Below are positions 38,100 through 61,820 of a stretch of DNA of 64,000 nucleotides, piece by piece. The notes beneath the pieces are model-generated. The model was not told the origin of the DNA. It saw only the letters and a program-made list of their open reading frames with translations, and ran no database searches. Positions within the stretch are counted from its first letter, which is position 1, and each line of letters opens with the position of its first letter. The translations under genes were made by a program, and so were the position numbers. This stretch comes from Candidatus Woesearchaeota archaeon (GTDB lineage Archaea; Nanobdellota; Nanobdellia; Woesearchaeales; B29-G15), in assembly GCA_017610005.1 (NCBI GenBank), contig JAFCCU010000007.1, positions 21,414 to 85,413 on the forward strand. The letters are read 5' to 3'.

Positions 38100-38458
38100 A
38101 TCAAAAGAAGACAAAAGAGAAGGTATTATCGTTTTTACTTGTCTTTTTGATATTACTTGTACCGATATCTATCTTAACTTCACCCAAAGAATCTAATGTT
38201 GTAATTACGGGCCTTTACACTGAAGAGTTTAATAAGTCTGCTCAACTGGTATCTTTCAGGGTTAAAAGTAATTCTGAATCAGATCTTCATTGCAAACTTA
38301 GAATTGAATTGTTTAGGCAGAAAGTGATGGTTGATAAGTTTTTCAAGGAGGTTGGTTTTATCCCTTCAATGGGGATCGTAGAAAAAGAAATGATTTTAAG
38401 AGCGCCCTCTGGAGAAAACGATTTTTTACTTACTCCTGAATGCTGGTCAGTTAATTAA
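38084..38458 (+). CDS. hypothetical membrane-anchored protein
   Basis: N-terminal TM VLSFLLVFLILLVPISIL. Confidence 0.65.
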   Translation: MESLLNQKKTKEKVLSFLLVFLILLVPISILTSPKESNVVITGLYTEEFNKSAQLVSFRVKSNSESDLHCKLRIELFRQKVMVDKFFKEVGFIPSMGIVEKEMILRAPSGENDFLLTPECWSVN

Positions 38459-39622
38459 GGGGTCTTTCCCGTAAATTTCAGCAATTGCTTTTGATCCCCC
38501 CCTACATCTTAGGAGGAGTTTACATTTTTCACATTTTTTAGGTACATTTGATAAGTTTCTTAATTGTCTCCATTCTTCACTATTCCATGCGTTATAAAGA
38601 GATTTAATATCCCCATAGGTTTTAGGAGAGTAGTAGCTAGGTTTTATTTTTCCATTAGTTGACACTACCATTCTGTTTGCCCCATCATCATAAACTCCCC
38701 CGCAAGATATCAATGTTAATTTTTCATTAAGGCAAAGGGGGATTGCATTGGCAATTTTAAATCCTTTACCGTATAATAAATTTAATCTAAAGATTTCTTC
38801 AATTGCAAATTTTAAATCTGGGTTAGCAACATTCATTGGTCTATAAAACTCAAGTAAGTATTTATCAGAATAAAGTTTGTAATATTCTTCAAGTTTTTTG
38901 ATATTCTCATTTGTTAAGACTATCCCCCCCCTAAGGACCTTTACACCTTCTAATTCGGGGGTACTGTTGCCATGAAATGAGATTAAAACATTATCAATAT
39001 TCTTTTTTATAAATTCCCCCATTTTTTGATCAATTAATGTGCCATTAGTATTAAGCCACACATGAAAACCAACTTTCTTTGCAAAATTTACCATTTCAAT
39101 AAAATCTGGATGAAGTAGGGGTTCGCCACCTGTAAATCTAATAAAATTAACATTCATTTCTTTTGTTTGCAAAATGATATTTTTAATTACATTTAGTGGA
39201 AGATTCTTCCTTTCTTGTCTTTTATCTAAATTGTAGGAGTATTTATTAAAGCAAAATTCACAGTTTAAATTACAGTTATCAGTTACTTCAATTACTACTT
39301 CTTTGGGAATATCTGGGATACTTTTTACAAGATGCTCAGATTCTTTGAAAAAACCATTACAATGCAAATTAAATTTACAAGAGAAACATTCTTTATTTTT
39401 AATTTTCTCTTTACATGGCGTATTGTCTAATAAGAAAAAATGGCTCTCAAACAGACACATTGGAAGTTTAGGGAATTTTAAATTAATTAGATGAGAATAT
39501 TGGGTAATTTGAAAGAGGTAGCTTATGAATTCTGATTTTTTTAAAGATGTATTTAGGTTTATTGTAATATCTTTTCCCCCTGCTGCATAAGATTTTTTAA
39601 ATATTGAAGAAAAATCTTCCAT
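38447..39622 (-). CDS. radical SAM/SPASM maturase (HxsC-like candidate)
   Basis: CNLNCEFCF; FTGGEPLLHPDF; SPASM-like CGGVYDDGANRMVVSTNGKIKPSYYSPKTYGDIKSLYNAW...CEKCKLLLRCRGG; located beside HxsB/HxsD-like genes. Confidence 0.8.
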   Translation of the reverse strand: MEDFSSIFKKSYAAGGKDITINLNTSLKKSEFISYLFQITQYSHLINLKFPKLPMCLFESHFFLLDNTPCKEKIKNKECFSCKFNLHCNGFFKESEHLVKSIPDIPKEVVIEVTDNCNLNCEFCFNKYSYNLDKRQERKNLPLNVIKNIILQTKEMNVNFIRFTGGEPLLHPDFIEMVNFAKKVGFHVWLNTNGTLIDQKMGEFIKKNIDNVLISFHGNSTPELEGVKVLRGGIVLTNENIKKLEEYYKLYSDKYLLEFYRPMNVANPDLKFAIEEIFRLNLLYGKGFKIANAIPLCLNEKLTLISCGGVYDDGANRMVVSTNGKIKPSYYSPKTYGDIKSLYNAWNSEEWRQLRNLSNVPKKCEKCKLLLRCRGGSKAIAEIYGKDPLIN

Positions 39623-39658
39623 AAATTAAATTAATAGAAGACTTTATTTAAAGTTTAC

Positions 39659-39997
39659 TTAATAGCTAGAATGATGAACAACCATGTTCCCTGAGGCAGT
39701 ATAAGAGATTGTGACATTACCTAACTCTGTCTCATAAAATTTTTCTTTTATTACTGTGTCAGAACCCATAGTCGTTTCGGGAGATTGAATTGCTTTACTA
39801 AATCCTATTGGGTAAATTCTTCCCTTAACAGCTTTTAGAGAAATTGCAGCCCCGATTGCAGCCCCGCCAACAATCGACCCCACAGTTAATGCACTTTGTT
39901 TAGAGATCTGACCGCGTTCACCCTTCACAAAAGAGTTAATATCTTTTCTTAATTTAGGTAGAACTCCTTTCTTTTTTATTCCTCTTTTTGATTTCAA
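39659..39997 (-). CDS. candidate RiPP precursor (HxsA-like, C-terminal VVHHSSY)
   Basis: 112 aa; LRKDINSFVKGERGQISKQSALTVGSIVGGAAIGAA...; overlapping H-x-S tripeptides HHS and HSS at C-terminus; between the two rSAM maturases. Confidence 0.65.
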   Translation of the reverse strand: MKSKRGIKKKGVLPKLRKDINSFVKGERGQISKQSALTVGSIVGGAAIGAAISLKAVKGRIYPIGFSKAIQSPETTMGSDTVIKEKFYETELGNVTISYTASGNMVVHHSSY

Positions 39998-40031
39998 TCA
40001 GTGCACCTTTACCAAATAACATTAATATTGT

Positions 40032-41354
40032 TTATAAATCTTTTGTTTCAGCCCATTTAAGGAACATCTTTTCGTATGATTTTTCTGAAAAAAATTTCTC
40101 AAAGAGGAATTCAAATTGGGCCATAACAACCTTACAATCAAAATTACCGATTTTAGGAATTGGAGAACCTGTTTCTGCAAAACTTGCTACCGGGCACACC
40201 CCGCAAAATGGTTTAAACGCGCATCTTTTGCAAAAAAGAAGTTCATTTTGAGAGCACTTAATAATTCCTTTTCCTGAATGGATTATATCTTTATAATCTT
40301 CTACTACATTGCCTAACTTAAAGACATCATCTTCAATCATCCTGCCTTCATCACATGTGTAAACATCTCCATTGTATTCATAAGCAAGTTGAGATATAAC
40401 TGCCCCACAAGGGCTTTCTAAATCAGTAAAAAGAGGATTCTCATTTAAAATTGCTTTTTTTATAAGAATAGTAGTATACACTTCACTTATTTTTTCATTT
40501 ATTAAAAGATTAATTAGTTCTTTCCAAAATTCAATATACCTCTCGGGAGAGACTTTTTCATCCTTGCCCTTTCCAATTGCCCTAACTGGCTTAACCCAAA
40601 TGCGGCTAAATCCGAACTTTTTATACTCTCTAATAATTTCTTTTGGGTATTTTAAAGAATCTTTTGAAATCACAGCAATTGCAGAAAGATTTTGTCTCAT
40701 CCTTTTTTGAATAATCGGAATCCATTTTTTTAAGGCATCGTAGCTTCCCGGTCTATTTTTTTCTTGCAATTCTCTTGGACCATCAAGGGAAGTGCAAAGC
40801 CAGACTCTATTTTTTACTAGGAAATCCAGTTTTTCATTGGTAAGCGCAGTCAAATTACTAACCATTGTAAATTGAATTTCTTTATCTGTTTCCCTTGCTT
40901 TTTTTATTGCATAATTAACAATATACTTAACAATCTTAAAATTTAAAAGTGGTTCTCCTCCTTGAAATTCAATTTTTAAATTCTTTTTTGGACTTTTGAA
41001 AATAAAATCAACAACATTTTTCGCAGTTTTCTCAGTCATATCAAATTCATTTGTATTAACTATTGGTGCCTGGCAATATTTGCAAAGAAGATTACACCTT
41101 CTTGTGGGTACTACTATATGGAGGCTTGGGCCAATAAATATTTGAGCTTTGTTTCTTCTGTAGTTTCTGATTATGCTTTCTTTATTTGCATTAGTTACAA
41201 TTATCCCATTTTCTTCTAGAATCTGATGAAGTTTTTTAGTATATTTTTTTGTTTTAAACAACAGATAGTCAGATTTATTTAAGATTACATAGGACCCAGC
41301 ATCATTTGTTATTAGATAACTATTTCCAATCCGTTTGACCCTTGCATTAAACAT
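40032..41354 (-). CDS. radical SAM/SPASM maturase, HxsB-like
   Basis: RRCNLLCKYCQ; IEFQGGEPLLNF; SLDGPRELQEKNRPG; CGAVISQLAYEYNGDVYTCDEGRM...CSQNELLFCKRCAFKPFCGVCPV. Confidence 0.82.
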   Translation of the reverse strand: MFNARVKRIGNSYLITNDAGSYVILNKSDYLLFKTKKYTKKLHQILEENGIIVTNANKESIIRNYRRNKAQIFIGPSLHIVVPTRRCNLLCKYCQAPIVNTNEFDMTEKTAKNVVDFIFKSPKKNLKIEFQGGEPLLNFKIVKYIVNYAIKKARETDKEIQFTMVSNLTALTNEKLDFLVKNRVWLCTSLDGPRELQEKNRPGSYDALKKWIPIIQKRMRQNLSAIAVISKDSLKYPKEIIREYKKFGFSRIWVKPVRAIGKGKDEKVSPERYIEFWKELINLLINEKISEVYTTILIKKAILNENPLFTDLESPCGAVISQLAYEYNGDVYTCDEGRMIEDDVFKLGNVVEDYKDIIHSGKGIIKCSQNELLFCKRCAFKPFCGVCPVASFAETGSPIPKIGNFDCKVVMAQFEFLFEKFFSEKSYEKMFLKWAETKDL

Positions 41355-41589
41355 TCTGCATAATCCCTAAACAATAATTAAAGAATTCAAGTCCTAATTC
41401 AGTTAAGTCAAATCCTTCATCTTTTGGAGTCATTGTAATTATATACTCTCCTTTGTCCAAATCTAAATTAATAAAAGTAGATTCAGAAAAAGCTTCGCTT
41501 GCAAGAAGTATTGCTTTTTTTAAATAAATTTCAGAATTAAGATAGAGAGTTACAACATTATTTTTATGATCCACATTAATGTTTTTCAT
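41347..41589 (-). CDS. divergent HxsD-like small protein
   Basis: VTLYLNSEIYLKKAILLASEAFSESTFINLDLDKGEYIITMTPKDEG aligns by eye to the neighbouring HxsD-like protein. Confidence 0.6.
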   Translation of the reverse strand: MKNINVDHKNNVVTLYLNSEIYLKKAILLASEAFSESTFINLDLDKGEYIITMTPKDEGFDLTELGLEFFNYCLGIMQNV

Positions 41590-41896
41590 CTTCTTCACAG
41601 CTTGATAATGCAGTCTTAATTAATGCGTCAGATATCTCTTGTTGTTTTTTTGATTCCATCGTGTATACTTGAGATGAAATCAATTCATTTCCAAATTCCA
41701 ATGCAAGGCTGTTTACATCTCCCTTGCCTTTTGGTTTAATTGTTACAGTTATTTTACTATCTGGGTCTCCACTTAAGATAACATAGGCTTTATCAGTCAT
41801 TGTGTAGGCTGCATTTAACACTGCCTCAAGAGAATATAGCTCTGGATTAACAAAAAACTCTGCAAAATCATCATATAATTTAACATTCTCAACCAT
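41576..41896 (-). CDS. HxsD-like small protein
   Basis: VNPELYSLEAVLNAAYTMTDKAYVILSGDPDSKITVTIKPKGKGDVNSLALEFGNELISSQVY pattern of HxsD. Confidence 0.7.
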   Translation of the reverse strand: MVENVKLYDDFAEFFVNPELYSLEAVLNAAYTMTDKAYVILSGDPDSKITVTIKPKGKGDVNSLALEFGNELISSQVYTMESKKQQEISDALIKTALSSCEEDEKH

Positions 41897-41927
41897 TAAA
41901 AACCCCAAGCGAGAATAACTTAAATTG

Positions 41928-43028
41928 TTATATAAAGCTTTCTATAAGGGCCCTAAATAAGATTATAATATCTGCTCCAAAAATTACTATTAATAAACAT
42001 CCAAAAAACATAAAAGGTGCAAAAGGCAATGCTTCAAAAACTCTTATTTTATCTTCTTTTAAAAAACCTTTATTGTGAATTGATTTAATTTTTTTAATAT
42101 CTTTTTTAGTCATTCCATCTCCGACATAAGAAAAAACTGAATTAAAAGCACCCTTAATCATCATAGCGCCAATCAATGAGAATCTTAAAAAAGTTCTTTT
42201 CTCAAAGCAGTCTGGCCGTGTTTGTATGATATCTTCTGCAGGGATCATGCCTTCTTTAATTTCAGAAATTTTAATCTCTTTTGAAAATAACTCATAAGAA
42301 ATTCCGATTAAATAAAATCTTAGAGCAAGAAATGTTAAAAGCATTAATGCAAAATTATACAGGGAGTGTAGGGAAAAAGCTGTTGTTCCTTGGACAAAAA
42401 CCCTCACTATACAGATTACAAACCCCACAGAAATTGCTTTGAGTTTTAATCCTTTGTTTAATAAAAAAAGGAAAAGAAACATAAAAGTTATACCAATAAA
42501 AAAGTTACTTGGAATCTTTAATGCTTTCAATATAATCTCAATAATCCACCCAAATCCAAATATAAACAGTGAAAGAGTAACTAATATTCTTAATGATAAT
42601 ACATTTAGAAGAAAGCTTCCAATTCTTTTTGGTCCAGCTTTAAATGGAATATAAATTATGTAAAATACTAAAAGGGGAACAAATGTGTTAACAAGTATTG
42701 AAAATGATGGAAAATAAGAAATATATGAAACTTTGTAAACAATTGGGAATATGATAAAAGAATAAGCGATAAAAAGCTTTGCATCTCCAGCACTCCAAAG
42801 GCCAACATACCAAAGCATATACCCAAATGCAATTGATATTAAAGCATTTATCACATAGTTTGATGTAAATGCGAAACTAAAATTTAAAGAATAAGTTAAT
42901 GCAAAAATTGCCCCAAAAATAATACCTAGTAGAATCCATTTATTTCTAACAATCTTATATTTAAAGTCCTCATATGAAGTAATAACACCAAAAATAATTA
43001 AGAATGTGAGTATTAGATAATTTACCAT
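41928..43028 (-). CDS. archaeal prepilin/preflagellin peptidase (A24, FlaK/PibD-like)
   Basis: Multi-TM; SYEDFKYKIVRNKWI; WSAGDAKLFIAYS; SYVGDGMTKKDI. Confidence 0.88.
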   Translation of the reverse strand: MVNYLILTFLIIFGVITSYEDFKYKIVRNKWILLGIIFGAIFALTYSLNFSFAFTSNYVINALISIAFGYMLWYVGLWSAGDAKLFIAYSFIIFPIVYKVSYISYFPSFSILVNTFVPLLVFYIIYIPFKAGPKRIGSFLLNVLSLRILVTLSLFIFGFGWIIEIILKALKIPSNFFIGITFMFLFLFLLNKGLKLKAISVGFVICIVRVFVQGTTAFSLHSLYNFALMLLTFLALRFYLIGISYELFSKEIKISEIKEGMIPAEDIIQTRPDCFEKRTFLRFSLIGAMMIKGAFNSVFSYVGDGMTKKDIKKIKSIHNKGFLKEDKIRVFEALPFAPFMFFGCLLIVIFGADIIILFRALIESFI

Positions 43029-47804: not shown

Positions 47805-48662
47805 ATGGGCAAAATTCCTATTAAAAAAATTATTCCTTGTGTAATCATAATAATTCTTATTTTAACTGTAATTATTGGTCTTTCCCTTATCCCCCCTAAA
47901 GAAGAATGGGTTAGTGATTCTTTTAGGGAGATGTACTTCTTAGAGGGGATGGAATATGAAGAGTTTATTGAAGGTTTTGCTATTGAATGCCCAGATATTG
48001 ATACTTGCCCAATGGAGACCCTGGCCATTCTAGCATCAAAAGCTAAAACTGAAAATTATCCCATTGAAGAGATTCCAGGCATAGGGGCAATAAAGGAAAG
48101 GGCGCAAAAATTGCTTTTGAATTCAAGGCAAAATATTAATGATCCAGAGGTTTTTTGGAATCTTCATGATTCAATTAAAATTGTTAAATATTTAGGAGGG
48201 TTTTCAAGAGAAGATGTTGATTCTTGGTTAATTTTTTTAGGAGAGTTAAGGATCAAAGAATTGTGTATTGAACTTTATGAAGCGGAACCAGTCAAGGAAG
48301 GAATTAGTAATTATGGGTTTTCAATGGATACCTTAGAAGAATATTCCACATTTTGTAGATTAAGGAGGTTTAGTACGATTAATTTCTTGTCAATTGAGGA
48401 ACCACCAAGTGTAACTTATTATAAAGATAAGGTAGAAGATTATGATTCGGTCTATTTTGATATTTGTCAAGATCTTAGTGAGATAAATGCTAATGGAGAA
48501 ATTCATTTAACAACCCTCTGGGGGTTAAATTTCTTGGTAAATCATATTTACTGTAATTTAGCATTAAGCCCAAAAGATGCGAAAATTGTTGAAGATGTTA
48601 AAAATGCGGATGCAGAGTCTTCAGAGATGGCAAGAGTCAAACAAGTGCTTGAGTTATTTTAA
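47805..48662 (+). CDS. hypothetical membrane-anchored protein
   Basis: N-terminal TM IIPCVIIIILILTVIIGLSL. Confidence 0.6.
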   Translation: MGKIPIKKIIPCVIIIILILTVIIGLSLIPPKEEWVSDSFREMYFLEGMEYEEFIEGFAIECPDIDTCPMETLAILASKAKTENYPIEEIPGIGAIKERAQKLLLNSRQNINDPEVFWNLHDSIKIVKYLGGFSREDVDSWLIFLGELRIKELCIELYEAEPVKEGISNYGFSMDTLEEYSTFCRLRRFSTINFLSIEEPPSVTYYKDKVEDYDSVYFDICQDLSEINANGEIHLTTLWGLNFLVNHIYCNLALSPKDAKIVEDVKNADAESSEMARVKQVLELF

Positions 48663-49421
48663 AAAATATTTTATTTCTAGTATTGTGTGAGCAAATCCTT
48701 TTTTTATGAGATAGATTCTTGGGTGGAACAGCATTAAGAATAGAAAGTGGAAAAATGTATTTTTCTTGGAACTTATTTTTCTAAAAAAGAGATTTACAAT
48801 CATTTGTTTGTAAGTAAACTTTTTTGGCAATTTAAAAAAGTGATTTATAAATTCAGTACAATTATGTTTAATCGCAAGTTGTTCAAATAAATTCCATTTA
48901 AAGTCTTTCTGGGTTAGTTGGGTTATCCTTTTTGAATTAAGTTTGAAGCCCATCCCAAAATCTTTAAAATACATAGATATGATAAGATAAATCGCTTCAA
49001 ATTCTGGCCTTAAAATTTTTATTTTCCCCCATTTTTTACTGTACTCTAACCAGATTTCATTTTCAGAGATATTAAAAGGATTTGATTTGTCAAATAATGC
49101 CCAGTGAAGTTCCATTGCATGTTTAAATTTTTTGTGAGTGTAAACATAATGGAATCCAAAGTTATTTAGGTAGTTTAAAGAGAAAAATTGGGTATAATCC
49201 AAATAACCTGCAGCAATAATACTTTTTTGACATTTAATTAGGTCTTTTTTTTTAATGAGAATGTCAATATCTACTGAATTTACTAAGGATTTTGGGTCAT
49301 TGAGGGCATCTTTTGCCCCTTTAAGAAAAATTACTGGTACATTAATAATTGAAATTAAGTATTGAATTTGTTTAGTATAGTTTTTTGTTATTAATACCTG
49401 GGTGATTTTTGAATGATCCAT
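48654..49421 (-). CDS. NTP_transf_5-like nucleotidyltransferase
   Basis: VIFLKGAKDALNDPKSLVNSVDIDILIKKKDLIKCQKSIIAAGYLDY...AMELHWALFDKSNPFNISENEIWLEY pattern. Confidence 0.75.
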   Translation of the reverse strand: MDHSKITQVLITKNYTKQIQYLISIINVPVIFLKGAKDALNDPKSLVNSVDIDILIKKKDLIKCQKSIIAAGYLDYTQFFSLNYLNNFGFHYVYTHKKFKHAMELHWALFDKSNPFNISENEIWLEYSKKWGKIKILRPEFEAIYLIISMYFKDFGMGFKLNSKRITQLTQKDFKWNLFEQLAIKHNCTEFINHFFKLPKKFTYKQMIVNLFFRKISSKKNTFFHFLFLMLFHPRIYLIKKGFAHTILEIKYFLK

Positions 49422-49586
49422 AATATCTTTTAAGAATTAGTTTGCCTTATTAAACTTTTTATGTAGCTCCCAAAAATACCTTAAATTACTTTGGTTTGAC
49501 CATTTGCACTGAAAATTAAAATATAATAACAAAACTGAAATTATTATAGATAAAATTTAAATACGCGAGTTAGGAACTTAATACTA

Positions 49587-49850
49587 ATGAGACTTTCCGA
49601 TAAGGTTGAATGGTCAAGGGAAGAAGGGAAAAACTTTTTGATTAGTTTTGAATCAGGGAAACTTTTCTCCCTTAATGAAACTGCAAGTAGGATTGTTGAG
49701 TTAATAGGGGAAGGGAATGGAACTAATGAGATATTATATTCATTGGGAAACGAATTTGATGTAGATAAAGAAAAGTTAACACTAATTGTTAATAATTTTA
49801 TTACTCATTTAGAAGGCGAAGGGATAATTATTAGAGGAGACAAGAATTGA
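49587..49850 (+). CDS. PqqD-family / RiPP recognition element (RRE)-like protein
   Basis: FLISFESGKLFSLNETASRIVELIGEGNGTNEILYSLGNEFDVDKEKLTLIVNNFITHLEGEGII. Confidence 0.85.
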   Translation: MRLSDKVEWSREEGKNFLISFESGKLFSLNETASRIVELIGEGNGTNEILYSLGNEFDVDKEKLTLIVNNFITHLEGEGIIIRGDKN

Positions 49851-50668
49851 AGAAAGGAGGAATAACTATTGCAGGAATCAGTATGGAAATTGAGTTTAGC
49901 TCAAACATTTTGTTTGAAAAATTTTTCTCTGTACATAATGCTTGGAAATCCCCAGAAGCAAATTCAGATTATCATATCCAGCTTGAATTAGATCCCATTG
50001 TGAGGAAGGTTAAGGGGGCAACTTTTAATGAATCAAGGGGATGGGTGCATTCAGTTTCAGATGCATGGGATATTAGATACAATCAAAAATTAAAAAAGTT
50101 TTTTGTTAAGATTAATAATAGCTTCTTAGAAGAAAAAAAGTGCCTTTTTCCTTTTTTGAGGATGATCTATGCAATTGCATTGAATGAGAATGAAGGGTTT
50201 ATTTTGCATGGTTCAAACATAGTATTAGGGGATAAGGCGGTTGTTTTTAGTGGTCCAAGCGGGGCAGGTAAGACAACAATTGCACGAAATTGTAAATCTT
50301 CTGTATTAAATGATGAATGTTCTGTTATCCGCGGTTTTGGAGATAAGTTTATTTGTTATGGTAACCAGCTAGGGGGGGACAGGGATGTTATCTCTTTAAA
50401 TCAAGAGGCAGATTTAGAATTAGTTTATTTTTTGGATGGTTGGGGAGAGAATATATTAGAAGAATTAGCTCCATCTCAAAGTATAAAAAAACTTATGATA
50501 AATGACATTTTTATGATGTATTTTGTTGGAACGCCTGGCGCAAGCGACTATTTAAAAAGAGAGTTTACTAATTTGAATAAAGCAAATAAATATCTAAATT
50601 TCCTTTCCTTGAAACTAAAAAGAAATGTAGATTTCTCGAAAGTATATTCTCAGTTAGAGATCAGTTGA
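49847..50668 (+). CDS. HPr kinase/phosphorylase-like P-loop kinase
   Basis: GFILHGSNIVLGDKAVVFSGPSGAGKTTIARNCKSSVLNDECSVI; overlaps PqqD-like stop. Confidence 0.8.
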   Translation: MKKGGITIAGISMEIEFSSNILFEKFFSVHNAWKSPEANSDYHIQLELDPIVRKVKGATFNESRGWVHSVSDAWDIRYNQKLKKFFVKINNSFLEEKKCLFPFLRMIYAIALNENEGFILHGSNIVLGDKAVVFSGPSGAGKTTIARNCKSSVLNDECSVIRGFGDKFICYGNQLGGDRDVISLNQEADLELVYFLDGWGENILEELAPSQSIKKLMINDIFMMYFVGTPGASDYLKREFTNLNKANKYLNFLSLKLKRNVDFSKVYSQLEIS

Positions 50669-50848
50669 TTAAATAAATGTGAAAAATAACGTTTATAGTT
50701 TGGGGAAAGATACATCCTACCATGGGTTCCCAGTCCAGGGATTAAGGCCCTTATGATATGAATTCTCGTATTCTTCAATGTGAGAAAGCTTTTAATTTTT
50801 TTGGAAATTGTGATTTAATTATTTAAGGCCATATTTAAAATGGAAAAA

Positions 50849-50857
50849 CTTATAAAC
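50849..50857 (+). promoter_or_regulatory. TATA-box-like element for small ORF 50879-50974
   Basis: cttataaac approximately 26 nt before the ATG. Confidence 0.45.
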
Positions 50858-50878
50858 TAATTTTCTTTAACTAAGTTT

Positions 50879-50974
50879 ATGGCCAAAAAAGAGAGTAAAA
50901 AAAAGTTCGAGAATCCAGAGATTATCTTTATCGATAAAGTTGAACCAAGTATTGTCTCAGCCGAGTTTTCTTAA
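50879..50974 (+). CDS. 31-aa candidate RiPP precursor peptide (not in ORF track)
   Basis: ATG...TAA translation MAKKESKKKFENPEIIFIDKVEPSIVSAEFS; FENPEI resembles YxxPxL leader motif; next to PqqD, HprK-like and NTase genes. Confidence 0.55.
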   Translation: MAKKESKKKFENPEIIFIDKVEPSIVSAEFS

Positions 50975-51320
50975 ATAATCTTAAAATTATTGTTTTTAGT
51001 ACAAATAATCTTTCTTTAAAGTTGATTGTAACTTTTGCCTTGCCAATATAATTTATAAATTTCCAGGGCCTATCAAATGAGCCATTATTATCCCCCTTCG
51101 TAATCGCTTTTTCCCAAATTTTGAAGTAGTATCTATGGAGCACTAGTTGGTTATTTGATAAATAAAGGACTATATCTCCAAACTTAGGCATTGCTGTGGG
51201 GTCGATTGTGATTTTTTGCCCTGGTTGGATTTTAGGTAACATACTAATTGAAGTTTTACTGAGTTTTAATGTTCCATCCCTTTTAAGATATTTTTTGATT
51301 AATTTCTTTTTAACTTGCAT
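50928..51320 (-). CDS. S24/S26 (signal peptidase-like) serine peptidase
   Basis: TSISMLPKIQPGQKITI...KFGDIVLYLSNNQLVLHRYYF...AITKGDNNGSFDRPW. Confidence 0.78.
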   Translation of the reverse strand: MQVKKKLIKKYLKRDGTLKLSKTSISMLPKIQPGQKITIDPTAMPKFGDIVLYLSNNQLVLHRYYFKIWEKAITKGDNNGSFDRPWKFINYIGKAKVTINFKERLFVLKTIILRLFKKTRLRQYLVQLYR

Positions 51321-51396: not shown

Positions 51397-53139
51397 GTGA
51401 AAACAAAAATTTGGTTATTATTAATCTTAATTATTCTACAGTTCTTTTTGATTAATCATTATATGCCCATATCTGAAGTTATTACCCCTCAACCAATCGT
51501 AAATGATGATTATCCATTGCACCTTTATGATGTGCTGCTTCATAGAGAATCAATCCTCTCAGGTAATTCTGAATTTATTGTTTTTGGATATGGTCAGAAA
51601 GTGTTGTATGTGGCTGGATTGTACAAGTCAATGGGTGTGGCAATATTAAGTCTGATGTTTCCTATTAATGTTGTTGTATTCTTTAAGATTTATTTTTTTG
51701 CAATGTCTCTTTTTCTTCCTCTTTTAATATATTTTTCAGGTATCAATTTTGGCCTAGAAAAAAAAATAGCATTTATTTCCGGATTATTTTCAATAGTACT
51801 TTGGAATTTTTCCAATCCAATCCATTCAGAGGTTTATTATGGATTAATTCCTTACCTTTTTTTAATTCCAGTTTGGATTTTGGGTATCTCTTTTTTTAAC
51901 TTATTTAGGCAGGAAAAAAAGGAGAAGTATTTAATTATTGGTACAATCATTTTGGCCTACACATTTTTTATGCACCCTTTTTTCTGGGTTCTTTCAGTTC
52001 CAGCTATTTTTTTAATGTTTTTATTTTCAGGACCGAAGCATAGATTGGTGCTATTTGGAATAGTAGGAATCTTGATTGTAGTTGTAGTTCATATAGTTAT
52101 GTTTAGGGCAAGTATTAATCTCCCTTCTAAAGAACCAATGTTTCATCAAGGAAAACTTGATGCGCTAATCAGCGAGCTGATTTTTTCCCCTATTTACATA
52201 ATTTCCCTTATTCTAGGTATTTGGGGGGTGATTATTTCAAAAAATAAAAATTTTAAATTAATTGGAGGGGGAGGGATGATTTTCCTTTTTTGTTTAGGAT
52301 ATCTTGGAAATTATTTCCCTATTAATTTTCTTCAATTAAGTAGGGCCACGTTTGCGTTGTCTTTCCTTTGTACTATCCCTTCTGGGTTGGCGCTAATAAC
52401 AATTTTTCAAAAGAAAAAAGTTTTAGTAATTCTTGGAATATTTGCGTTAATCTACATTTTTATTTCGCCATATTCAATCACAGAGCAATGGGAAAAAACA
52501 ATTTCTACAGAAATTCCCCCTCATTTGGAAAGTTTGATTGATTGGATTAGGGAGAACGGTGAAGAGACAATTTTATTTGAGACATCTGGTGCCAAAACAA
52601 ATCATTTTTATCTTGGCCATATAAATATCCTATTTCCACAGATATTAAACATGGAGTTTGCAGGTAACCCTTACCCCTATATTGGTAGCTCAAATAATTT
52701 TTATTTTTCAAATTTTTACGAAGGAATTTTGCATGATTCGCCCATAAGTAATTACACTTGTAGTTCATTAAATAGGGTTTTCAATGTTTTTAAGATAAGA
52801 ACGATTGTTGCATTTACTCCAGAAAGTCAAAGTAAGTTTTTTGAATGTGGGTTTTTGGAATCTAAAACAATTAATGTTGAAAGTGGGGGAGAGATAAGGA
52901 TATACAAAATAAATTCTTCTCATCCAGAATTTTATGATGGAAAATCAAGTTTTACTTTTTCAAAGAGAATGATAAACTCCTCTTCTGAATTTGTTATATT
53001 GAGGCAGAGATATTACCCCTCATTAAAAACCCTTGAAGGCTTTAAGCTGTATCCTGTGAAGGTAAATATCTTTAATAATTATAGTATAGATTTTGTGAAA
53101 GTTGAAAATAATATGAAACCCTTCACTTTAACTAGCTAA
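51397..53139 (+). CDS. polytopic membrane protein, GT-C glycosyltransferase-like
   Basis: Multiple TM segments; NDDYPLHLYD after first TM. Confidence 0.6.
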   Translation: MKTKIWLLLILIILQFFLINHYMPISEVITPQPIVNDDYPLHLYDVLLHRESILSGNSEFIVFGYGQKVLYVAGLYKSMGVAILSLMFPINVVVFFKIYFFAMSLFLPLLIYFSGINFGLEKKIAFISGLFSIVLWNFSNPIHSEVYYGLIPYLFLIPVWILGISFFNLFRQEKKEKYLIIGTIILAYTFFMHPFFWVLSVPAIFLMFLFSGPKHRLVLFGIVGILIVVVVHIVMFRASINLPSKEPMFHQGKLDALISELIFSPIYIISLILGIWGVIISKNKNFKLIGGGGMIFLFCLGYLGNYFPINFLQLSRATFALSFLCTIPSGLALITIFQKKKVLVILGIFALIYIFISPYSITEQWEKTISTEIPPHLESLIDWIRENGEETILFETSGAKTNHFYLGHINILFPQILNMEFAGNPYPYIGSSNNFYFSNFYEGILHDSPISNYTCSSLNRVFNVFKIRTIVAFTPESQSKFFECGFLESKTINVESGGEIRIYKINSSHPEFYDGKSSFTFSKRMINSSSEFVILRQRYYPSLKTLEGFKLYPVKVNIFNNYSIDFVKVENNMKPFTLTS

Positions 53140-60545: not shown

Positions 60546-61820
60546 ATGAGACAGGACTATATTCAACGAACTTATAACCCAAAAAATACTGACTTAGTTG
60601 CCGAATATTTCATTGAGGCAGCAAAAGGGTTCACCTTGCCTGAAGTTGCCAATGCAGTTGCAGGAGAAAGTTCAATTGATACTTGGACAGATATTAAAAC
60701 ACTAAACCCAGCGTTAGCTAAGCGTCTTAAACCCCATGTGTTTTACATTCAAGGAAACATTGTCAAAATTGCTTATAATCATGAACTCTTTGAGCCTGGT
60801 TCAGTTGCCCAGATATTAAGCTCAATTGCTGGAAATATTCTAAGTATGAAGATGGTTAAGAATATTAAACTATTAGATTTTCACTTGCCAAAATTATTTG
60901 TTAGTTCTTTTCTTGGGCCATTGTTTGGAATTGAAGGAATTAGAAAAGTCTTAAAGGTTCCTAAAAGACCTCTTATTGGTACAATTGTTAAACCAAAAAC
61001 AGGGCTTACTCCAAAAGAACATGCTACAGTTGCTTATAACTCCTGGCTAGGGGGTTTAGATTTAGTTAAAGATGATGAGAATTTAACTAATCAGGGGTTT
61101 AACCCATTTAAAGAAAGGGTAAAACAAACATTAAGGGCGAGAGATATTGTTGAAAAAGCCACTAAGGAAAGAAAAGCTTACATGGCAAACATCACCGCAG
61201 GCACAACTGAAGAGATGATTAAACGAGCAGAGTATGTAAAATCTTTGGGTGGAAGGTATGTAATGGTAGATATTATTACAAGTGGATGGACTGCCTTACA
61301 ATCTTTAAGAATTGCAAATAAGAAATTAAAATTAATTTTGCACGGGCACAGGTGCATGCATTCAGCAATTACTAGAAATGAAAAACATGGAATTTCAATG
61401 CTTGCAATTGCAAAGTTAACAAGGCTTGTTGGCTTTGATCAATTGCATACTGGAACAATAATTGGTAAAATGGAAGGAAAAAGAAGAGAGATTCTTGATA
61501 TTGATTATGAGATGGAACACCAAAATGTTGAAGAGAATAATATCAATCGGGTGTTAAGACAAAAATGGTATGATTTAAAATCATTAATGCCTGTGGCCAG
61601 TGGAGGTATTCAACCTTGCATGATCCCGGAACTTTATGCAAATTTTGGGAATGATATAATAATGCAATTTGGTGGGGGAGTTCATGCTCACCCAGATGGC
61701 ACATTGGCAGGCGCTTCAGCTGCAAGAGAAGCATTAACTGCAACTCTTAAAAAAATTCCATTAAAAGAGCATGCAAAGAATCATCCAGAATTAATGGCAG
61801 CACTTAAAAAATGGGGTTAA
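60546..61820 (+). CDS. rbcL: ribulose-bisphosphate carboxylase large subunit, form III-like
   Basis: GTIVKPKTGL; LDLVKDDENL; HGHR; LHTGTIIGKMEG; ASGGIQP; FGGGVHAHPDG all retained. Confidence 0.96.
   Translation: MRQDYIQRTYNPKNTDLVAEYFIEAAKGFTLPEVANAVAGESSIDTWTDIKTLNPALAKRLKPHVFYIQGNIVKIAYNHELFEPGSVAQILSSIAGNILSMKMVKNIKLLDFHLPKLFVSSFLGPLFGIEGIRKVLKVPKRPLIGTIVKPKTGLTPKEHATVAYNSWLGGLDLVKDDENLTNQGFNPFKERVKQTLRARDIVEKATKERKAYMANITAGTTEEMIKRAEYVKSLGGRYVMVDIITSGWTALQSLRIANKKLKLILHGHRCMHSAITRNEKHGISMLAIAKLTRLVGFDQLHTGTIIGKMEGKRREILDIDYEMEHQNVEENNINRVLRQKWYDLKSLMPVASGGIQPCMIPELYANFGNDIIMQFGGGVHAHPDGTLAGASAAREALTATLKKIPLKEHAKNHPELMAALKKWG

Follow-up and report, generated by a model that had tools for sequence, protein, structure and literature searches.

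Linear polyphosphorylated peptides (LPPs), which involve LppA/K/B/S/D/N in Paenibacillus alginolyticus, were described in 2026 (PMC13381572) and are, according to Popov et al., restricted to Bacillota (PMC13381572). In this pathway, with LppB presenting the precursor, LppK polyphosphorylates the core at Ser3; cleavage after FET is the work of LppS, which is homologous to SipW, and LppN was inactive in the test host (PMC13381572). Concerning the phosphorylated lasso peptides of the paeninodin type, the C-terminal Ser is the target of PadeK-type kinases and of PsmK, and a hexose on the phospho-Ser results from PsmN. Lassopeptides are among the classes covered by a survey of archaeal RiPPs, which leaves kinases unmentioned, and a literature search of incomplete coverage found no paper on an archaeal system of the kind reported here.

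The window, by which we mean the whole 64-kb stretch of DNA that was analysed, lies on contig C25 of a 1.58 Mb woesearchaeal genome that is 92% complete. It contains a cluster which we consider, with some reservation, probably to be an archaeal RiPP cluster working like that of the bacterial LPPs, the bacterial counterpart being already published. The features of the cluster are as follows (positions in the window).

48654..49421, minus strand: NTP_transf_5 nucleotidyltransferase, PsmN/LppN-like (PF14907, 58 bits, cut-off 31.2; profile of the four relatives, E 8.3e-21)
49556..49561, plus strand: TATA-like TTTAAA at -31 of the RRE start (promoter element search)
49587..49850, plus strand: PqqD-family RiPP recognition element, RRE (PF05402, 44.8 bits, cut-off 23.4; matches to RREs of known structure)
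49847..50668, plus strand: putative peptide kinase of PEPCK/HPr-kinase fold (held-out profile from the other loci, E 1.7e-28; AF2 model, pLDDT 80.7; fold matches)
50849..50854, plus strand: TATA-like CTTATA at -30 of the 31-aa ORF, the spacing of a leaderless transcript (promoter element search)
50879..50974, plus strand: candidate precursor peptide MAKKESKKKFENPEIIFIDKVEPSIVSAEFS (FxxPxI leader motif; cut suggested between VSA and EFS; C-terminal Ser31)
50928..51320, minus strand: small S26 (archaeal signal peptidase-like) protein, putative leader peptidase (TIGR02228, 35 bits, E 9.3e-9, below the model cut-off of 51.85; held-out profile, E 1.9e-13)
51397..53139, plus strand: polytopic membrane protein, possible GT-C-type glycosyltransferase (association with the cluster uncertain)

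A first-pass annotation of this DNA had listed an NTP_transf_5-like protein, a PqqD-like RRE, a P-loop HprK-like kinase (in which GPSGAGKTT is indeed seen), a 31-aa ORF and a small S24/S26-like peptidase; an ORF check of the window found all five frames at these positions, and the four family assignments agree with the matches given above and with the kinase model discussed below. A Pfam search with the membrane protein gave no match; a membrane protein of the PMT_2 (GT-C) family is found near the cluster in each of the four related loci (L011, L012, L071 and L073).

Comparison with LPP and lasso peptide systems

Judged by the LppB PDB sequence, the only direct sequence comparison, and by description for the other Lpp proteins, the locus appears to have in common with LPP a discrete lasso-type RRE, an HprK-like kinase, an NTP transferase, an archaeal-type signal peptidase (Ser-His-Asp) as leader peptidase, a YxxP-type leader and the lack of a macrolactam cyclase. 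It differs in its host, which is archaeal and not a member of the Bacillota, and in its precursor of 31 aa, compared with 35-200 aa in LPP, while the archaeal relatives, unlike LPP, carry radical-SAM enzymes. Only the [YF]xxPx[IL] part of the LPP leader signature YxxPxVLxHQxIxFETxxS is present in the archaeal loci, and no ABC transporter that could represent an MsbA-like exporter was found among the genes surrounding the window locus; since both the full signature and the exporter are lacking, we do not file the locus as LPP, though it would be LPP-like in its working. No matches were returned from plasmids when an LppB fragment, the S26 protein and the kinase served as queries.

The locus shares a B1-type RRE with the paeninodin-like systems (PadeK, ThcoK, PsmK/PsmN), as well as the kinds of genes which there encode the HprK-like kinase acting on the C-terminal Ser and the NTP transferase leading to hexose on the phospho-Ser, but it has no adjoining cyclase C, its genome has no B2 cysteine protease (Transglut_core3, PF13471, no match at 92% completeness), and an S26 peptidase is present instead. 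Asn_synthase matches occur only on other contigs, none of them near the locus: one is an ordinary AsnB that starts MCGIYGF and lies among glycan genes, another an archaeal AsnB-like protein of 375 aa, and the third a frame of 458 aa that barely exceeds the cut-off. A lasso cluster with dispersed genes, to which a cyclase and protease elsewhere in the genome would have pointed, was therefore rejected, there being no B2 protein and the two Asn-synthase proteins inspected looking ordinary and not lying near the locus. The HPr-rel-A system (TIGR04352/TIGR04353) likewise combines a PqqD-like protein with an HprK-related kinase, but its models score far below cut-off in the window (15.5 bits against a required 200, and 20.8 against 35).

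Conservation among Woesearchaeales

Searches that took in as many as 371 genomes from the phylum and 352 from the order yielded four further loci, L011 (G216), L012 (G370), L071 (G405) and L073 (G461), so that the loci compared are few, namely five, and the named relatives are metagenome-assembled genomes (MAGs). Kinase, RRE and NTP_transf_5 genes are clustered in all four relatives and the S26 gene in three; no S26 protein was found in 16-20 kb around L011/L053. Among the 352 genomes of the order, each of the six with the strongest RRE matches has an HprK-like kinase and an NTP_transf_5 protein adjoining, and this clustering exceeds chance. A contig scan returned two relatives only, both Candidatus Woesearchaeota MAGs. 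Conserved clustering, together with the lack of a B2 protease and of a nearby cyclase, supports the proposal of the first-pass annotation that recognition and tailoring modules have here been assembled into an archaeal system that is not of the lasso kind. Its description as stand-alone holds for the window locus and fails for the four relatives, all of which carry radical-SAM genes within the cluster or next to it. In the same-genus genomes G001 and G002 neither the kinase nor the RRE was found and the genes beside FEN1 differ from those of the window, which makes the cassette an accessory one within the genus.

L049 (G014), a version more distantly related, comprises an RRE, a kinase, a family-2 glycosyltransferase and NTP_transf_5; its PqqD protein (L049:9810-10253, minus strand), which adjoins the other three genes, has a C-terminal extension YETPRLVKFEDMQDLLLLDPVHEVHEQQGWPWKKDGTA; here an RRE and its own precursor apparently form one protein. 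A family-2 glycosyltransferase fused to an HprK-like kinase is found at L071:9717-11339 (minus strand), linking phosphorylation with sugar transfer. Among the candidates that were rejected, the kinase match of L013 was false, the protein being an ABC transporter, L014 has a kinase-like match but no PqqD was noted, and L050 and L051 contain PqqD without a kinase.

Elsewhere in the window, positions 38447-43028 hold a radical-SAM cluster of His-Xaa-Ser (hxs) type with an HxsB-like protein (367 of 370 bits), HxsD and HxsD-like proteins above cut-off and a weak HxsA3-like match, adjoining an A24 prepilin peptidase and pilin-like genes. L012 has a similar arrangement; the same-genus L074 shows conservation of the rSAM/HxsB part. 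The genome as a whole has 60 Radical_SAM matches in its 1.58 Mb, with dense arrays on contigs C10, C50, C24 and C4, and a RuBisCO large chain is encoded at 60546-61820 of the window.

Putative maturation proteins and proposed precursor peptide

Among NCBIfam models the lasso PqqD chaperone comes nearest to the RRE. A profile built from six archaeal RREs matched TbiB1 (5v1u, 6.6e-14), PbaB1 (9x90, 6e-11), LppB (9x8z, 8.5e-7) and the RRE of the TfuB1 crystal structure in the PDB, and the window RRE was itself recovered by a held-out profile from the other loci (E 1.2e-14); by these profile comparisons, the PqqD protein of the window is an RRE of the lasso/LPP type.

The kinase gene overlaps that of the RRE by 4 bp. 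No Pfam model scored above its cut-off against the protein, and sequence searches of the PDB returned generic P-loop proteins only. An AF2 model based on five sequences (pLDDT 80.7, pTM 0.82; with three sequences the model was poor, pLDDT 43) matched PEPCK with Z 13.9 over 242 residues and HPr kinase 1knx with E 1.1e-6, and as modelled the protein has the PEPCK/HPr-kinase fold. Lasso kinases have a catalytic His-Lys-Asp-Asp motif; H121, K142 and D156 are invariant across the five kinases and match the His-Lys-Asp of the lasso/LPP kinases, but the fourth residue in the window is Glu (E157) and not Asp. Together, fold and catalytic residues support a kinase role.

Ser26, His62 and Asp77 are invariant in an alignment of the four S26 proteins, D83 is present in that of the window, and a transmembrane segment is not evident by eye. 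In a search with the S26 subfamily, the four training members, which match by construction, scored 154-252 bits and the next match 56, and no close match was found in genomes without the cluster. The NiSOD maturation protease (TIGR02754) is also of S26 type and is weakly matched by three of the four S26 proteins, but archaeal signal peptidase fits them better and no NiSOD was noticed nearby. The window NTP_transf_5 protein has the core KG...DIDIL; it lacks the first ~58 PF14907 positions, its N-terminus being ~90 aa shorter than in the relatives. As a refinement of the first-pass annotation, leader peptidase is the best reading for the S26 protein, and precursor for the 31-aa ORF.

The 31-aa ORF has a basic N-terminus, an FxxPxI motif and a C-terminal Ser, and its core contains no Cys; 47 bp of it run antisense to the 3' end of the S26 gene. 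When a leader is defined as [YF]xxPx[ILV] following at least three K/R residues, this is the only ORF with such a leader in the 64 kb; in Markov-model sequences of equal length about 0.8 such ORFs arise on average by chance (~0.03 within the 2.7-kb cluster). A TATA-like element at the distance seen here occurs at ~3.5% of random positions; of 14 local genes, 8 show one at -27 to -31. In every one of the five loci there is a single short [YF]xxPx[IL] ORF with a basic start, the candidates in the relatives being MKKKYKKPDIKKFVELSDLSDIVVSATSEIISE (L012), MIKKDSYEKPTIKKIGNLSDLANKVCTTTGTEA (L011), MHKKKKEYVKPKLICIKEKIHFGAITCVTGPALTPC (L073) and MKKKTLEYEKPTLKLIKNVGELNCCKTC (L071).

By held-out profile, a precursor beside the maturation genes was found in four of the five loci (E 1e-7 to 0.004), while that of the window is identified by motif, position and promoter only. 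Since the profile of the four relatives did not recover the window peptide (E 1.8, rank 3), the case for the latter is built on its position, its uniqueness in 64 kb, the TATA element at -30 and the pairing of RRE and leader contacts. In the crystal structure of LppB, D70 bonds the leader Tyr (PMC13381572). At the aligned position the four relatives have Asp, and their peptides Tyr, where the window has Ile and its peptide Phe; these changes appear compensatory, the swap representing one event only. A whole-genome search with a precursor profile that included the window peptide found no better candidate, and the 31-aa ORF looks like the precursor of the window cluster.

Proposed maturation pathway and alternatives

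From the observed genes and families, the fold of the kinase model, the clustering, the leader motif and the promoter element, we infer the following catalytic steps, cleavage site and product. The RRE would bind the FxxPxI leader motif of the 31-aa precursor, and the kinase would phosphorylate a Ser, most likely the C-terminal Ser31, where several phosphates on the one residue are possible. The S26 peptidase would then cut off the leader, perhaps between VSA and EFS, which would reduce the peptide to a core of three residues whose third is Ser, and NTP_transf_5 may add a nucleotidyl group, or a hexose as PsmN does, to the phospho-Ser. A linear product would be expected, given that no enzyme able to close a ring is seen. 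Signal peptidases follow a -3/-1 rule, which permits cleavage after VSA, and VSA is also present in the L012 peptide; the cut at this point, giving a core EFS with Ser3 as in LPP, is guessed from these two loci. Against the pathway as a whole stand the divergence of the window precursor and its antisense overlap with the S26 gene, the Glu in fourth position of the kinase motif, the short N-terminus of NTP_transf_5 and the lack of an exporter among the surrounding genes.

The window locus, as the only one of the five without radical-SAM enzymes, could be a reduced remnant. Taken further, it would be a decaying radical-SAM RiPP cluster whose ancestral B12/SPASM enzymes were lost in the window lineage, a reading which fits the radical-SAM genes of all four relatives, the shortened NTP_transf_5, the window precursor being the most divergent and the situation in G001 and G002, where the kinase is missing and other genes lie beside FEN1. 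Decay is nevertheless unlikely, given that none of the five window ORFs is disrupted and their active-site residues are invariant, that promoter elements stand at canonical spacing before both RRE and peptide, that the RRE and peptide changes look compensatory and that the peptide core has no Cys. A different substrate is judged a little less likely again: RRE, kinase and S26 protein would act on another small peptide or protein encoded elsewhere, as the failure of the held-out profile and the antisense overlap with the S26 gene might suggest, but the 31-aa ORF, with its own TATA element, is the sole window ORF with the defined leader and lies inside the cluster, and the genome offered no better candidate to a profile that contained it. 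Least probable among these alternatives is joint maturation with the His-Xaa-Ser system 7-10 kb away (38447-41908) as one larger RiPP locus. The same-genus G002 has hxs genes at the syntenic place without kinase or RRE, the peptide has no His-Xaa-Ser repeat, and pilin, repair and unknown genes lie in between; these points outweigh the closeness of both systems in the window and the arrangement in L012, where NTP_transf_5 directly follows hxsB and the hxs genes adjoin those for kinase, RRE and S26.

Returning to the LPP-like reading, we suggest tentatively, as possible rather than probable, that these loci form a separate archaeal lineage of cyclase-free phospho-RiPPs. The window would be its simplest member, with a product Glu-Phe-Ser bearing phosphate(s) and a sugar or nucleotide, the relatives would add B12/SPASM radical-SAM enzymes to the kinase/RRE/S26/NTP core, and the products may serve as signalling or surface peptides in DPANN archaea. 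In this archaeon with its tiny genome, a compact gene set probably produces a short peptide that is phosphorylated and trimmed, by a kind of natural-product pathway so far described only in the Gram-positive Bacillota. The locus offers a testable peptide, kinase and peptidase for archaea whose secreted chemistry is almost unexplored, and the occurrence of the four-protein logic of LPP in DPANN archaea, with a leader code of their own and radical-SAM partners in the relatives, suggests a module of greater age or mobility than has been assumed.
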